A DNA stretch of 36,392 nucleotides, from contig JAQXQE010000026.1 of the NCBI GenBank assembly GCA_029101005.1, positions 1-36,392 on the forward strand, in the 5' to 3' direction. Positions 7,217 to 30,248 of this stretch are shown one piece after another. Both the position numbers and the translations under genes were made by a program. Below the pieces are notes generated by a model. The model was not told the DNA's origin. It saw nothing but the letters and a program-made list of their open reading frames with translations, and made no database searches. The first letter of the stretch is position 1; the number at the start of each line of letters is the position of its first letter. Source of the stretch: Bacillota bacterium (GTDB taxonomy: Bacteria; Bacillota; Clostridia; Peptostreptococcales; Anaerovoracaceae).

Positions 7217-8719
7217 CTACCTTCCGAGGCATTTCTCGGTTCTAACTACATGCTTGAAAACATTCTCGAATCTGTTCAGTGCATCATCGATTACCTCATC
7301 TGTATCTGCCATAGATGTGTAGAGTCTTGAGCCAGCAAGCGTAACGATACCGTTTGCCATATATGCAGCACCCATTCTCTCCATTGAATCCTTGCGCTCA
7401 TACATCATATCCTTCTTCTTGAGAACCTGAATGAGCGACTTAGGCAGGCAGAGTGATGAGAAGTCGAAACTCATTGCAGCTGAGCACTCAAGGTGAACGA
7501 TGCTTCCCTGGTTGTAAGCAACATATGGGAGACCGTACTTGTCGATAAGGAACTTGAGACCGTCGCAGAGTCTGTCTCCAGCTCTTCCTGCAATCTCGCA
7601 TGCGTTGGTTCTCTCAATCTCCTTGATAGCAGTGTATCCAGCAAGTGCTGAGAGCGGATTAGCTGCGAGAGTTCCGCCAACATAAGCCTTGTGCCCCTTG
7701 TTACCGAGACCAGCAGCCATAATGCCAGCGTACTCCTTCTTACCGCCAACTCCTCCAGCAGCTGGGTATCCACCAGCAACAACCTTACCAAAAATAGTAA
7801 GGTCTGGATCAACATCGAAGTAGCCCTGAGCACCAGAGATTCCAACTCTGAAGCCAGTTACAACCTCGTCCATGATCATCAGCGCGCCGTACTTATTGCA
7901 GAGTTCTCTTACGCCCTTGTTGTACTCCTTCGAGATAGGTCTCGTTCCCGACTCTGGGCCAACCGGCTCGACAATAACTGCGGCTGTGCCGCCTTTTAGC
8001 TTATTAATCTTGAGAACTGTCTCGAGCATATCGAGGTCATTAGGTCTAACCTCGTCTGTTGTCTTGTAAGCTCCGTGTGGGATGCCGTGCGACTCGAGGA
8101 ACTGTCTTGTTCCAGGAATCTTGAGGCCGTATACCATCTGATCTGACCAGCCGTGGTATGCGCCGCCGACCTTGATAATTCTCTTATGACCAGTTGCGAT
8201 TCTTGCGATACGAAGAGCTGCCATTACTGACTCGGTTCCTGAACCGAGCATTCTGAACATCTCTACGGATGGCATATGCTTGCAGATCTCTCTTGCGAGC
8301 AGGAGCTCAGGCTCACTGAGAAGTCCTGTTACAGGACCGCACTCATCGATGAGCTTCATTGCAGCCTCTTTGACAGGCTCGTAGTTCGAACCGAGGATTG
8401 TTGGTCCGCCAGCCTGAAGGAAGTCGATGTACTGATTGCCGTCAGCATCCTCGAGGTATGCACCGTTAGCCTTGTTGACTACGAGTGGGAATGGCACGTT
8501 GAACGCGAGGTTGTGCTGAACTCCACCAGGAATGTAGTTCTTAGCTTCATCATAGATTGCGAATGACTTCTGACACTTCTCATTGAAGTATTTAAGAACC
8601 TCATTCTCATAGTATTCATCACTCACCTCCCAGAGTGGTTCCCTCTGCAAGTGTCTTAATCTAGCATTAATTTCGTTAGGATCATCCCATCTTGAGATTC
8701 CACAATTTACTTTTGCCAT
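7217..8719 (-). CDS. Class III aminotransferase, glutamate-1-semialdehyde aminomutase-like
   Basis: A 500-residue PLP enzyme, about 70 longer than HemL because of an N-terminal extension. Residues 60-110 (YIPGGVQHN...YLEDADGNQYIDF) and LGSGTESVMAALRIAR are typical of the aminomutase branch. AYHGW, IMDEVVTGFR (Asp that binds the PLP nitrogen) and TIFGKVVAGGYPAA (Schiff-base Lys) are all intact. Since no other haem-synthesis gene is nearby and it shares an operon with a sugar kinase and an aldolase, it is probably not HemL but an enzyme moving or removing an amino group of an amino-sugar or amino-alcohol (inference). AAGGAGG precedes the start; it lies 3 bp after the TetR stop. Confidence 0.85.
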   Translation of the reverse strand: MAKVNCGISRWDDPNEINARLRHLQREPLWEVSDEYYENEVLKYFNEKCQKSFAIYDEAKNYIPGGVQHNLAFNVPFPLVVNKANGAYLEDADGNQYIDFLQAGGPTILGSNYEPVKEAAMKLIDECGPVTGLLSEPELLLAREICKHMPSVEMFRMLGSGTESVMAALRIARIATGHKRIIKVGGAYHGWSDQMVYGLKIPGTRQFLESHGIPHGAYKTTDEVRPNDLDMLETVLKINKLKGGTAAVIVEPVGPESGTRPISKEYNKGVRELCNKYGALMIMDEVVTGFRVGISGAQGYFDVDPDLTIFGKVVAGGYPAAGGVGGKKEYAGIMAAGLGNKGHKAYVGGTLAANPLSALAGYTAIKEIERTNACEIAGRAGDRLCDGLKFLIDKYGLPYVAYNQGSIVHLECSAAMSFDFSSLCLPKSLIQVLKKKDMMYERKDSMERMGAAYMANGIVTLAGSRLYTSMADTDEVIDDALNRFENVFKHVVRTEKCLGR

Positions 8720-8722
8720 ATC

Positions 8723-9295
8723 TTAGTCCTCCTTCAACACAAGTGCTGTTATCTCTTTGATACTTCTGCGTGCGCCATCGAAATCCTTGGAGAAAGTGAG
8801 CGCATAGAAGCTACCCTCCAGAATGGTCAGCGCAGACTCTTCCGATATACCATCCCTAAGCCTTCCCTGCTCTGCTGCCTTCGCCAAGTAGAAGCTGATC
8901 AGTTCTCGATATCCATCTCTGAGCTCCGAGAAGCTATCCCTTCCGAGCATATACTCATAGGCAACCGATACAACATTTGGATACGCCTCAGCATCAGTCA
9001 GCATACTGTTCAAAATGAAAAGCACCGCCTCATACGGATTGGCATCATCCCCGAGTTTAGTCTCAGCCTCCTCCCTCGTATCGTTGAGAGCAGAATTAAA
9101 GATAATCCTGATAAGCTCATCCTTGCTTCCGAAATAGTTAAAGAATGAAGTCTTCGATATTCCAACCGCAGAGCAGAGCTCACGAAGCGAAGTCTCGTGA
9201 TACCCCTTCTTCTCGAAGAGGTTACGAGCCGCTCGGATCATCTCCTTCTTGTTATTATCTTTCTTAATCTCCCATAGGGTCAGTTTCTTATCCAT
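8723..9295 (-). CDS. TetR-family transcriptional regulator of the aminotransferase-aldolase-kinase operon
   Basis: A 190-residue regulator. Residues 16-62 form the TetR DNA-binding domain (IRAARNLFEKKGYHETSLRELC..VGISKTSFFNYFGSKDELI); the rest is the helical ligand domain. It is the first gene of the operon and lies just behind two palindromic sites overlapping the promoter, so autorepression with release by a pathway intermediate is likely. The ATG at 9295 coincides with the expected transcription start (see promoter) and has no ribosome binding site, so the message may be leaderless. An internal ATG at 9241 follows AAGGAG with no spacing and would cut into the domain. Confidence 0.88.
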   Translation of the reverse strand: MDKKLTLWEIKKDNNKKEMIRAARNLFEKKGYHETSLRELCSAVGISKTSFFNYFGSKDELIRIIFNSALNDTREEAETKLGDDANPYEAVLFILNSMLTDAEAYPNVVSVAYEYMLGRDSFSELRDGYRELISFYLAKAAEQGRLRDGISEESALTILEGSFYALTFSKDFDGARRSIKEITALVLKED

Positions 9296-9443: not shown

Positions 9444-10553
9444 TTAGTCCTCAAATGGGAAGTGGTAGTCAAGTCCAAGCTCGTCTCTTACCTCGAGGAT
9501 CTCCTTCTGGATTGCCTCGCCTACTGGAACTCCCTTGTCCTTTCTGTCGCACCAAGCGTCGTACTCCTTCTCACCTGCTGTGTAGATTCTCTCAGCTCCA
9601 GCAGCCTTCTCCGACGCTCTGAGTCCTCTGCAGATGTCTCCAGCAGTCTTCTTGAATACATCAAGTCCCATGAAGAACTCTGGGTTGATTACGAAGAAGA
9701 AGTGACCGAGGTGGTACATTCTTGGATTGCCGTTCTCATCAACTCCGCTGAGGTCCTTCATAAATGGACCGCCGCAGAATGCAGCTGACAGAATCTCTAC
9801 GATTGTAGTGAAGCCGTAGCCCTTGAAACCGCTGAGTGTCTCTCCAGGTCCGCCGAGAGGTGCAAGAGCTGCCTTGTCTGAACGGATGTCCTTGAGAATC
9901 TGAGCTGAATCTGTGAGTGAGTTACCATCTCTGTCGATAACAAGGCCCTCAGGTGTTGGCTTACCGTCACGAGCATAGTACTCAATCTTACCATTCTGGA
10001 TTGGTGAAGTAGCGCAGTCGAAGTTGAATGGGAATGGCTCATCTGTTGGGATAGTCCATGTCAGAGGGTTTGTTCCCATCATATTCTCTACTCCGAAAGT
10101 TGGAGCAACAGAAGGTCTAGCATTAGTTCCAGAAACGCCAATCATTCCAGCCTTCTCAGCCATGCCAGTCCAGTATCCTGCGATTCCGTAGTGAGTTGAA
10201 TTGCAGATAGCTCCTCCAGCCATTCCATATGTCTTAGCCTTCTCGATGAGCATCTCCATCATCTTGTAGCTGGCAACCATACCCATACCATCATGAGCAT
10301 CCATTACTACAGTAGTTGGAGTCTCCTTGAGAATCTCGATCTCAGTTACAGGCTTCAGTGTACCGAGCTTAATTCTGTCGAGGTAGATAGGCTTGAATCT
10401 GTTGCAGCCGTGGCTCTCAATTCCTCTTCTGTCTGACTCGAGCAGAACATCAGCACAGATCTTCGCATCCTCCTCAGGCACTCCGTAGCCCTTGAATGCA
10501 TCTATCATGAAGCTGTTCATAAGATCCCACTGAACATAAGGTCTAGTTTCCAT
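9444..10553 (-). CDS. Malate/L-lactate/ureidoglycolate dehydrogenase family (LDH2) oxidoreductase
   Basis: A 369-residue protein of the LDH2/MDH2 family, which has its own NAD(P) fold unrelated to classical lactate dehydrogenase. Hallmarks seen are LESDRRGIESHG near residue 39, CNSTHYGIAGYW near 117, MGTNPLTW, FDCATSPIQNGKIEYYA and GFKGYGF. It should reduce a 2-oxoacid or oxidise a 2-hydroxyacid with NAD(P)H in the cytoplasm; substrate is not predictable. AGGAGG lies about 10 nt before the ATG. It is 56 bp downstream of the HesB-like gene on the same strand and may be co-transcribed with it, although no terminator or clear promoter is visible between them. Confidence 0.88.
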   Translation of the reverse strand: METRPYVQWDLMNSFMIDAFKGYGVPEEDAKICADVLLESDRRGIESHGCNRFKPIYLDRIKLGTLKPVTEIEILKETPTTVVMDAHDGMGMVASYKMMEMLIEKAKTYGMAGGAICNSTHYGIAGYWTGMAEKAGMIGVSGTNARPSVAPTFGVENMMGTNPLTWTIPTDEPFPFNFDCATSPIQNGKIEYYARDGKPTPEGLVIDRDGNSLTDSAQILKDIRSDKAALAPLGGPGETLSGFKGYGFTTIVEILSAAFCGGPFMKDLSGVDENGNPRMYHLGHFFFVINPEFFMGLDVFKKTAGDICRGLRASEKAAGAERIYTAGEKEYDAWCDRKDKGVPVGEAIQKEILEVRDELGLDYHFPFED

Positions 10554-10609
10554 AATTGTCTAATCCTCCTGAATTACTTAATAGGTAGATAGTGTATAAA
10601 AGTCTTATC

Positions 10610-10960
10610 TTACTCCGCCTGATCCCCGCGGCTCGCGGCGATTCGTCTGGCGTACTCTTTATCCACGCAAATGCCCTTCGTCTCGCACTTTGACATCCAC
10701 GGCTGTATTGAGTAATTGACGGTGACATCCTCATCAAAGATGAGTCCATCCTTCTGCCAGAATACATTGACGCCATCAGAGACGGTAAGTTCATAGCCAC
10801 GCAAACTCATCTCTTCCTCAGTCTCGCTCGTGAAACTCACGAGCACCTCCGCACTCGGAGGCGCACATCAGCTCGAGAAAACCCCAGGGAAGAGTTCAAT
10901 CTGCGTATAACCAAGACGCTCCATATATTTCTTCATCTCATCTGTAACGTGCATATTCAT
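10610..10960 (-). CDS. HesB-like protein, probable selenoprotein (in-frame UGA)
   Basis: Two open stretches in one frame, 10960-10871 and 10867-10610, are separated only by a TGA at 10868-10870. Read as Sec, the product is 116 residues: MNMHVTDEMKKYME at the start, FPGVFSS-U-CAPPSAEV around residue 31, then a conserved-looking tail (DGLIFDEDVTVNYS, QPWMSKCETKGICVDKEY). Length and layout fit the small HesB-like family, which is known to contain Sec members in methanogens and clostridia. The UC pair suggests a redox or metal site. A hairpin that fits the bacterial SECIS pattern lies 31 nt downstream. The start has no ribosome binding site and sits at the predicted transcription start. selABCD genes are not in the window. 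Alternative: a recent nonsense pseudogene, less likely given the intact frame and hairpin. Confidence 0.75.
10826..10844 (-). promoter_or_regulatory. Candidate bacterial SECIS element
   Basis: In the mRNA, GCUCGUGA pairs perfectly with UCACGAGC around the loop GUU. The apical loop is 31 nt after the UGA and begins with G, matching the published rules for bacterial SECIS (short loop with an early G, roughly 16-37 nt from the UGA). A second, overlapping hairpin (10843-10864, 9-bp stem, loop AGUG) lies closer to the UGA. Confidence 0.6.
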
Positions 10961-10966
10961 ATGACG

Positions 10967-10975
10967 ATTATAACA
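10967..10975 (-). promoter_or_regulatory. Extended -10 promoter of HesB-like gene
   Basis: On the - strand TGTTATAAT is an extended -10 element. The predicted start of transcription is about 10960, the first base of the ATG, so the message looks leaderless. No convincing -35 is seen. Confidence 0.55.
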
Positions 10976-11014
10976 CATGATTGTGTCGCAGACGTGCAGA
11001 TGACGGAGTTTTTG

Positions 11015-11023
11015 TGATATACT
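11015..11023 (+). promoter_or_regulatory. Extended -10 promoter of acyltransferase operon
   Basis: TGATATACT is an extended -10 on the + strand, about 26 bp before the acyltransferase start. It is back to back with the HesB-like gene promoter. Confidence 0.45.
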
Positions 11024-11048
11024 TTTGAGTTGTGAGGTGACAAAAAAT

Positions 11049-12071
11049 ATGAAAGAGAAACTCAATCTTCGAATAATATCGGAGAATCGCGCCTTTCTGA
11101 TGGGCGTATCGATTATAACAATTCTGGTTTTCCACTACGGCAATCTGCTAGTGGCCTGCCACGAGCCAATAGACTGGTTCAACCGCGCCTTCTTCCACTT
11201 CATCGGACCTGGCGGAGTTGACGTCTTCCTCGCACTCTCCGGAATGGGCCTCTACTTCTCATTCAAGAGAAACAGCGAGCTCGGACAATTCTACCGCAAG
11301 CGTATTGTCAGACTCTTTATACCATACCTGATCATCGCAGGCGCACGCTTCACCTGGGCAGCCATTCTCAATTTGGGATCCGCCCCATTCTGGCCAAGCT
11401 TCCTGCAGAACTTCTTCTTCATCAGCTTCTTCACAAGAGGCAATTCTGCATACTGGTACGTGCTCCATATGTTTATGTGCTACCTGATATTCCCGTTCGT
11501 CTTCCGCCTCGTCGAAAGCGAGCGCATCGACCGCCGAATCTCATTCTTCGGCCTGGTCATCGCAGTCACAGCATTCACATACTGGTTCAGCCTCGCGAAC
11601 CCAACACTCTTCGGCAGAATCAACATCATGCTGACCCGCTACGCTGCATTCTTCTTCGGATGCTACTTGGGTAAAATGGTCTACGACCGTCGTGAGCTGA
11701 AGATCTCCTACATAGTCGGCAGTGTGCTCTGCCTCGGCTCGGTTTTCTTCCTCACGGATTACCACGCAATAATCACGAGGTACGCGAGATCAATCTTCTG
11801 TATCTCACTCTTCTTCCTCTGTATGCTTTTCTATGTTCTGGTCCTCAAGCGCTTCAAGTTCTTCGACTGGATATACAGAGTATGCGAGTGGTTCGGACGG
11901 TACACACTGGAGCTCTATCTCCTGCACGTATCACTGATTAACGTGTTCGGCTGGCTCGGACTCAAGCAGACCATCCTCATCAACTACTGCCTCATGATTG
12001 CAACATCGATCGTACTCGCAGTAATCATCAAGAAGCTCGAGGATAAGATAACAGCAATAGTTCTCAAATAA
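11049..12071 (+). CDS. Acyltransferase-3 family integral membrane protein
   Basis: A 340-residue protein with about ten hydrophobic segments. ENRAFLMGVSIITILVFHYGN matches the N-terminus of acyltransferase-3 proteins, including the His thought to be catalytic. GPGGVDVFLALSGMGLYFSFKR is the family's second signature (usual form VDxFFxLSG). AYWYVLHMFMCYLIFP and LYLLHVSLINVFGW are further typical segments. Such enzymes move acetyl or other acyl groups onto cell-surface sugars across the membrane. GAGGTG at 11034-11039 supports the ATG at 11049; an upstream TTG in frame is not needed. It is followed 15 bp later by a HAD phosphatase gene, probably in one operon. Confidence 0.88.
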   Translation: MKEKLNLRIISENRAFLMGVSIITILVFHYGNLLVACHEPIDWFNRAFFHFIGPGGVDVFLALSGMGLYFSFKRNSELGQFYRKRIVRLFIPYLIIAGARFTWAAILNLGSAPFWPSFLQNFFFISFFTRGNSAYWYVLHMFMCYLIFPFVFRLVESERIDRRISFFGLVIAVTAFTYWFSLANPTLFGRINIMLTRYAAFFFGCYLGKMVYDRRELKISYIVGSVLCLGSVFFLTDYHAIITRYARSIFCISLFFLCMLFYVLVLKRFKFFDWIYRVCEWFGRYTLELYLLHVSLINVFGWLGLKQTILINYCLMIATSIVLAVIIKKLEDKITAIVLK

Positions 12072-29165: not shown

Positions 29166-30248
29166 ATGCATATGGCAGACGCATTGCTCGCACCTGCAGT
29201 TGCTACTACAATGTATGCGGCTTCAGCTATTGCGGCGGGCACATCAGTATATCAGTTAAAGAAAGAGAACAGAATCGAGCTCGATTACAGCAAAGAGAAG
29301 CTTCCTACTATGGCTGTAATGGCTGCCCTGGTCTTCGCTGGTCAGATGATCAACTTCACAATTCCAGGCACAGGTTCTTCAGGACATATATGTGGAGGTA
29401 TGCTGCTTGCGGCATTACTTGGACCGTGGGCTGGATTCTTGTGTATGATAGCAGTCCTTCTTATCCAGGGACTTTTCTTCGCGGATGGCGGACTTATGGC
29501 ACTGGGTGCTAATATCTGGAATATGTCATTCTATGGATGTATTCTCGGATACTTCCTCATCTACAAGCCAATTATGAGAAGTAAGCTCTTCAGCAGCAGC
29601 GGAGAGAAAGCAGGAACAAGATTCAAAATCATCCTTGCGTCAGTACTCGGATGTGTACTAACATTACAGTGCGGTGCATTCTCAGTAGTAATTGAGACAT
29701 CACTCTCAGGAATCACAGAGCTTCCATTCGGTGCTTTCGTTGCACTTATGCAGCCAATTCACCTTGCAATTGGAACAGTAGAGGGTCTCGCTACAGCTGC
29801 AGTTCTCTGCTTCATCTATGAGGCAAGACCTGAGCTTCTGAGAGAGCTCAATGCCAAGGAGAGCGATGGACGCTGCTCATTCAAAGGCGCGATTGCTATT
29901 CTCGGTATCACCGTTCTTGTAATAGGTGGTGGACTTTCACTCCTCGCAAGTGGTAATCCAGATGGACTTGAGTGGTCTCTCTTCGGCAACGAGGAAGGCG
30001 GATACTCAGCTAATATGGGACTCGATGAGGAGAACTACGGAGTTGACAGTAGCGCAGCACAGACAGCGCAGGATATCCAGGAGTCAACTTCATTCCTGCC
30101 TGATTACGCATTTGCTAATGACGGAGAGAATGCGCTCGGAACAACAGTTTCCGGAATAGTCGGATCGGTAATGGTAGCAATAATCGCAGCTATCATCTGC
30201 GTCATCGGCAGCAATAGAAAAAATAGAAAGAAAAGACACAGTAGATGA
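29166..30248 (+). CDS. cbiM: NikMN-type nickel/cobalt ECF transporter substrate-binding membrane protein
   Basis: A 360-residue protein. It starts MHMADALL, the CbiM/NikM signature in which the free N-terminus and His 2 coordinate the metal. About seven helices follow (residues 1-220). A C-terminal part with NPDGLEWS (PDGLE motif) and a last helix near residue 335 matches the NikN/CbiN-like subunit. So M and N components are fused, as in many nickel systems. Basic tail RKNRKKRHSR. Overlaps cbiQ by 4 bp (ATGA). Nickel rather than cobalt is favoured by the nearby hypAB genes and the PDGLE fusion, but both are possible. Confidence 0.88.
   Translation: MHMADALLAPAVATTMYAASAIAAGTSVYQLKKENRIELDYSKEKLPTMAVMAALVFAGQMINFTIPGTGSSGHICGGMLLAALLGPWAGFLCMIAVLLIQGLFFADGGLMALGANIWNMSFYGCILGYFLIYKPIMRSKLFSSSGEKAGTRFKIILASVLGCVLTLQCGAFSVVIETSLSGITELPFGAFVALMQPIHLAIGTVEGLATAAVLCFIYEARPELLRELNAKESDGRCSFKGAIAILGITVLVIGGGLSLLASGNPDGLEWSLFGNEEGGYSANMGLDEENYGVDSSAAQTAQDIQESTSFLPDYAFANDGENALGTTVSGIVGSVMVAIIAAIICVIGSNRKNRKKRHSR

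Follow-up and report, generated by a model that had tools for sequence, protein, structure and literature searches.

The IscA protein has a three-cysteine pattern that includes C-terminal cysteines, and in bacterial selenoprotein genes the SECIS loop is expected 16–37 nt downstream of the UGA. The described systems closest to the locus presented here are two families of small selenoproteins, TIGR01911 (HesB-like selenoprotein) and NF041239 ('CC/Se motif (seleno)protein'). In the parts covered of a 2026 inventory of prokaryotic selenoproteins, the motif given for the HesB-like TIGR01911 is UxGP and that for NF041239 is CxxU, and no HesB-type entry with a UC motif was found in those parts (PMC13188914). 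For the HesB-like selenoprotein of Methanococcus maripaludis, the portion of the published account that was covered reports that a disruption mutant still fixed nitrogen and that the function is unclear (PMC11097638). Listings of the open-licence literature on HesB-like and IscA/HesB proteins, NF041239, Mogibacterium, rumen selenoproteins and vicinal Sec-Cys pairs contain no description of the group of genes to which this locus belongs. The group is filed here as a UC-type addition to the HesB/NF041239 kind of selenoprotein.

The window, which is the whole stretch of 36,392 nucleotides analysed here (contig JAQXQE010000026.1 of a Bacillota bacterium of the family Anaerovoracaceae), contains the gene and associated features listed in Table 1. 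Judged from its sequence, the gene almost certainly encodes a selenoprotein, because the UGA and a covarying hairpin are conserved among homologues, the genome has the full Sec machinery, and purifying selection acts on the codons that follow the UGA. The best explanation of the locus as a whole, held with high confidence, is a selenoprotein gene with a putative Sec31-Cys32 working centre on a predicted IscA/HesB fold.

Table 1. Positions of the gene, its recoding signals and the adjacent dehydrogenase gene in the window.
Feature	Position	Strand	Evidence
Selenoprotein gene (almost certain), 116 codons and TAA stop	10610..10960	minus	Translation with TGA=U; homologues with conserved frame; purifying selection after UGA
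In-frame UGA, read as selenocysteine 31	10868..10870	minus	TGA in 39/39 homologous genes including the window's and in 6/6 further UC-type genes
Cys32, directly after Sec (U-C pair)	10865..10867	minus	TGC/TGT in 39/39; invariant column in alignments A1 (38 rows) and A4 (26 rows)
SECIS-type apical hairpin, 9 pairs, loop GUU at 10836-10834	10825..10845	minus	Offset conservation; covariation
Second, UGA-proximal CCUCC/GGAGG hairpin	10846..10861	minus	RNA folds; competes with the apical hairpin in isolated window RNA
Ldh_2-family dehydrogenase (PF02615), neighbour	9444..10553	minus	Pfam 379.8 bits; 56 bp after the selenoprotein stop

With TGA translated as U, the minus strand between 10960 and 10610 encodes 116 residues, which begin MNMHVTDEMKKYMERLGYTQIELFPGVFSSUCAPPSAEV, with U31 in this part, and end GDQAE. 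The ATG start codon is at 10960–10958 and a second ATG two codons on is a possible alternative start. The first-pass annotation had described a frame continuous through one TGA, and this holds for the minus-strand frame, in which the UGA at codon 31 is the sole interruption. The window contains nine TGA-bridged frames with at least 25 codons before the TGA and at least 80 after it, therefore a bridged frame is unremarkable by itself. It is because of their conservation across homologues that the hairpin and the bridged frame stand above chance. A simple motif check found no Shine-Dalgarno-like stretch ahead of the window gene's start (10961–10978 region); the same check upstream of the starts of the homologous genes is positive in 11 out of 39. 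A TATAAT 6 nt ahead of the ATG, a site missing from the list of the promoter scan, would allow a leaderless message. At the window gene the promoter and terminator scan returned two promoter-like sites, against 1.6 expected, and no terminator. Rfam gave no match at E <= 1 within 10400–11200, and Pfam gave nothing for the window protein.

When the window protein was searched against 148 related genomes, homologues were found in 39, the window's own genome included, and the best match in each runs through a TGA. In the codon alignment of these 39 genes, which come from two genera, neither the TGA at position 31 nor the Cys codon that follows varies. A profile search of 349 genomes of the family identified matches at E <= 0.01 in 52, 13 of them new beyond the protein search. 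Six of the 13 (L113-L118, from three further genera) have the U-C pair with TGA, and five (L120, L121, L122, L123, and L124) are more distant relatives with TGA in a different surround. Of the remaining two, L119 (4995-5339; another genus of the same family) is a distant relative that reads CC and has no TGA, and L125 (E 0.0099) gives a marginal match that leaves the Sec site uncovered. Two tandem copies of the distant relative are found in L122 (4995-5282 and 5376-5669), both with an in-frame TGA.

In all 45 UC-type genes, from five genera, the TGA is kept, and TAA, TAG or a sense codon is never found in its place. None of the 45 has Cys at the site, the distant L119 being the sole Cys form. 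Homologues ending at the UGA, which the first-pass annotation had said would refute its reading, did not occur, as the frames read through. Beyond the family, the same profile matched one of 341 genomes of the class, this being the window's own. The gene was found in 38 of the 47 genomes of one genus. The titles of 31 homologous loci name Mogibacterium sp., Candidatus Crickella equi, and uncultured Clostridiales or Clostridia, and several come from gut samples of goats, sheep or horses; the window genome belongs to the same genus as most of these loci.

The apical hairpin has the form UGCUCGUGA-GUU-UCACGAGCG. The perfect 8-bp stem with a GUU loop 31 nt after the UGA codon, as initially proposed, is present, and nine pairs are formed when the terminal U-G is counted. 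Counting downstream from the U of the UGA, the hairpin covers 25–45 nt and its loop G is at 34 nt; the loop offset is within the range expected of bacterial SECIS elements. In a simple stem search the same offset is seen in 38 of the 39 members, the exception, L024, having a 5-pair version of the hairpin. The 3-nt loop is GUU in 37 out of 39, with GGU and GCU found once each. In alignment A8 (39 rows, 36 of them distinct), 98.5% of the cells are paired, while slid versions pair 23–58%. Two-sided changes are present in five of the nine stem pairs, which is equalled by 1 of 500 shuffles, and the covariation score of the hairpin is reached by none of 500. Some of the double stem changes are silent in the protein, such as GTA/TTT versus GTG/TTC. 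The window stem departs from those of its relatives at several pairs, yet still closes. In a synonymous recoding control 2.65% of recodings do as well as the window sequence, so that this hairpin alone is mildly unusual; with 500 recodings for each member, fewer than 5% match the stem length in 32 of the 39.

The second hairpin influences the folding of the isolated window RNA. Folded from at or before the UGA, the window sequence has none of the nine apical pairs in its minimum-energy structure, where the upstream CCUCC/GGAGG stem wins. All nine apical pairs form once the first 12 or 15 nt from the UGA, and with them the 5' arm of the upstream stem, are left out. A ribosome stalled at the UGA would mask roughly these first 12 nt. 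At least six apical pairs are present in the minimum-energy fold of 36 out of 39 members when folding begins 12 nt before the UGA, of 32 when it begins at the UGA, and of 36 when it begins 12 nt after. The hairpin would recruit SelB with Sec-tRNA-Sec, and the ribosome would then insert selenocysteine at position 31, with Sec31 and Cys32 together probably serving as the working centre of the protein.

The window protein is predicted to be a single-domain protein with an IscA/HesB fold. Its AlphaFold2 model, made with Cys in place of Sec, has a pLDDT of 91.4. The ten best PDB matches of the model are of the IscA/SufA/HesB type, among them AQ_1857, HI1723 and YneR; the ten have query TM scores of 0.42–0.55 and 12–17% identity, with two of the ten at E <= 0.001. 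For the model of the core of a long form (see below), the best PDB match is IscA at E 7.1e-3, with none under E 0.001. Sequence profiles of alignments A4 and A2 found no IscA chain in the PDB. In the model, Sec31 is in the loop that joins strands two and three, where IscA has its first cluster Cys.

An invariant Sec31-Cys32 pair on an IscA-type scaffold suggests two readings. It may be a redox pair that alternates between an Se-S bridge and the reduced state, with thioredoxin or a similar donor supplying it; this reading is preferred, at about an even chance. The main alternative is that the pair is a soft-metal or Fe-S ligand, which is tentatively entertained. The corresponding rival for the protein as a whole, a possible but somewhat unlikely one, would be an IscA-like carrier or scaffold for Fe-S clusters or metals, in which Sec replaces the first cluster-binding Cys. 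Both the predicted fold and the position of Sec31 are as such a carrier would have them, and 18 of the 38 aligned members end in CC or SC, reminiscent of the C-terminal cysteines of IscA. However, the three-cysteine pattern is not shared across the group: another 18 members are long forms with a C-terminal extension in place of the pair, and two, L015 and the window protein, have neither. Of such cysteines the window protein has just C92 and C98, within a part that does not align with its relatives. There is also no Fe-S assembly gene among the ten annotated neighbours in the window. The redox pair is favoured over an IscA-like carrier because the C-terminal cysteines that the latter needs are not conserved.

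The neighbourhood was compared across 39 loci, made up of the window, the 31 titled loci and seven more, some with short flanks. In the window, the dehydrogenase gene is followed further downstream on the same strand by genes for a TetR regulator, a class III aminotransferase, a class II aldolase and an FGGY kinase, while an acyltransferase and a HAD hydrolase are encoded divergently upstream. The link to an LDH2-type dehydrogenase suggested in the first-pass annotation finds no support, this gene being beside the selenoprotein gene in one of the 39 loci, that of the window itself. In these loci, no gene near the window's selenoprotein gene, the LDH2 gene among them, falls into a cluster with a gene that neighbours another member. 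Across the whole group there is no constant companion family, the commonest being present in 15 of the 39; subgroups keep their own neighbours. A thioredoxin-like gene is located near 15 of 37 NF041239-type loci (L127-L169), up to about 0.9 kb away. These genes were named thioredoxin-like by reading of their sequences, with six of the 15, from two families, shown. It is possible that this neighbour is an electron donor at the NF041239-type loci.

The C-terminal parts vary within the group. The extension of the long forms is predicted to be helical in the one that was modelled, and no convincing PDB match was found for this helical part. DUF7674 matches the C-terminus of 9 of the 38 members at E <= 1, the best being L027 at 1.7e-7, which is over the cut-off, and it matches 1 of 60 relatives. 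This suggests a modest link between DUF7674 and the long form. In L113-L116 and L118, from five genomes of genera g328 and g86, a conserved C-terminal stretch of about 75 residues is joined to the Sec domain. Weak MarR_2, HTH_24 and AlkZ-like matches were obtained in a winged-helix scan of three of these five and one fragment (E 0.0026 to 0.17). These additions would fit a redox- or metal-responsive regulator in the winged-helix-like relatives, with the short form in the window acting through a partner. This sensor role is doubtful, as all of the winged-helix matches are below the Pfam cut-offs and the stretch is absent from the window protein and from the 38 A1 members. It is likewise improbable that the IscA-fold Sec-Cys domain is a general redox or metal sensor placed on differing effector domains across species, a proposal that carries the side claim that the Cys has changed sides in evolution, being C-U in several nearest relatives and U-C in this group, with the Sec codon possibly shifting by one.

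A further explanation is that the UGA is a real stop, in a degenerating gene or between two short genes. The nine chance TGA-bridged frames in the window are in keeping with this, as are the longest end branch of the window protein in the tree described below and the homologue in genome G031 (L014 / L060, C68 about 8410-8842), which has a broken frame beside unread bases. However, the TGA is kept in every UC-type gene, the hairpin covaries, and the stretch after the UGA is, on the evidence of the codon comparisons, under purifying selection. The Nei-Gojobori median dN/dS is 0.264 for the part that precedes the UGA, 0.229 for the 15 codons that follow and 0.184 for a block of 20 codons close to the PW motif, from 392, 596 and 178 usable pairs, respectively, of the 666 among 37 members (L014, for its broken frame, and L059 were dropped). 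A real stop is accordingly very improbable, and chance read-through was rejected on the conservation of the UGA and the covariation of the hairpin.

The genome of the window is 1.6 Mb and 99.6% complete. The selA, selB, selC and selD genes, which the initial annotation had proposed as a check, are all present, selC as the tRNA-Sec gene, and are located on one contig (C11) within about 5 kb. Scores are 370 bits for selB, 587 bits for selA, 366 bits for selD and 71 bits for tRNA-Sec. The selD of this genome (L010, C11:86985-87905) is itself a UGA gene, with an in-frame UGA in GGUGAK. UGA is rare as a stop: of 51 long frames counted in the window and 13 loci of the genome, 2 end with it. Overlaps were not merged in this count, and some genes may be included twice. 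None of the ten annotated genes around the selenoprotein gene ends with UGA. Genome-wide reassignment of UGA to sense would account for this rarity, but on the loci covered it was rejected, since UGA serves as the stop of the frame at 29166-30248, which overlaps the next start at 30245, selA and selB are of normal length under the standard code with no internal stop, and a UGA-reading tRNA-Sec is present with all of the Sec genes.

Within the genus, the gene is present in 37 of the 43 genomes that have a selA match versus one of the four that do not (one-sided Fisher p = 0.019), a co-occurrence that is supporting evidence only, many of these genomes being incomplete. The one genome with the gene and no selA match, G012, is 82% complete; the gene is missing from six genomes that have selA.

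Among the 38 members scanned, the Sec domain of the group reaches the cut-off of no NCBIfam or Pfam model, so that these genes have probably been overlooked or broken into fragments in databases. The best NCBIfam match of the window protein is NF041239, at E 0.044 and 13.9 bits against a cut-off of 40, and L116 scores 13.2 bits with the same model, again below the 40-bit cut-off. Among the 38 homologues scanned, NF041239 matches two at E <= 1. Membership of TIGR01911 was rejected, as that model matches none of the 38 at E <= 1 and has no match in the window's own genome. A weak NF041239 match elsewhere in this genome (C17:40718, E 6e-4) was also discarded, having no member-like frame of at least 60 residues with TGA as U.

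Profile comparisons extend further. In hhalign the UC core (A4, 26 of 45 genes) matches the NF041239 members with a probability of 81.5 and E 1.1e-5. Profile A9, which combines the UC rows with their nearest relatives, matches them with a probability of 96.6 and E 6.7e-10; the NF041239 set comprised 17 of 25 fetched members. As a search profile, A9 has matches in 25 of 391 genomes; the loci read in 18 of these, besides the window's own genome and G078, are NF041239-like forms, and all six that were scanned pass the NF041239 cut-off. The NF041239 members in turn match a set of 15 TIGR01911-type proteins, seven over the cut-off of the model and eight just below, at E 3.4e-7, and this set matches the PDB chains of AQ_1857 (4e-11) and E. 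coli YfhF (IscA; 6.2e-6). Compared directly with TIGR01911, the UC core is not significant (E 0.14; 0.012 for the wider set). These profiles, together with the tree described next, indicate that the group shares common ancestry with NF041239. The name HesB-like, as first given, is therefore supported for the fold, where the best matches are of the IscA/SufA/HesB type, and not for the TIGR01911 family, the nearest known relative being NF041239.

In a tree of 71 rows, which rests on 100 columns and has the window row as its longest end branch, the 26 UC rows tested are on one branch of their own (99/92). Next to this are four relatives of the C-U type, three of which read C-U and one of which, L123, reads S-U (branch 98/66). 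L158, L159, and L168, all reading C-U, are next out. In the C-U relatives (L120, L121, L124, L158, L159, and L168) the Cys is before the Sec, whereas in the UC group it is after. The Sec of these relatives is also one residue closer to the downstream strand, and where the stem is clear the loop is closer to the UGA by 3 nt. In the one pair compared by eye, L121 and L116, the Sec seems to be equally far from the upstream strand. Either the Sec codon may have moved by one with the hairpin staying in place, or a single residue may have been inserted after the Sec. An insertion would explain all of the observations, and no shift is claimed.

The group extends the selenoproteins with a HesB/IscA fold and is present in a genus with several genomes from ruminant or horse gut samples. 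Its strict Sec-Cys pair and changing C-terminal parts are new handles on function, and the winged-helix-like fusions would make a sensor role directly testable. To our knowledge, no selenocysteine-based transcription regulator has been described; if the sensor reading were true, these fusions would be such regulators.

Of the known systems, NF038090 (IscA/HesB family protein, IscA_HesB_Se) belongs to the same superfamily; it matches the relative L158 weakly (17 bits, cut-off 85) and none of the 38 group members. The likeness to the A-type Fe-S carriers IscA and SufA is in the predicted fold. TIGR01911, which in the order matches 137 of 198 genomes at E <= 0.001 and 7 of 198 over its curated cut-off, is likewise of the IscA/HesB type with the Sec in a comparable loop. 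Its members read UGGP and similar, and the motif of the group is UCxP in 37 out of 39 (UCTGS and UCDSS in one each), rather than UxGP. NF041239, with matches in 90 of the 398 genomes of the phylum and above the cut-off in 85, is the most similar, being a small HesB-type selenoprotein with the Sec in the same region, and members over the cut-off with U-C (L147, L155, and L163) or C-U (L158 and L159) pairs also exist. The group differs from it in having an invariant UC pair with a P two residues on in 37 out of 39, an invariant PW near the end, a longer loop and C-terminal additions. As far as the sequences can indicate, the group is best explained as a branch specific to its lineage, with NF041239 as a relative and TIGR01911 as a more distant one, and with interchangeable C-terminal additions.
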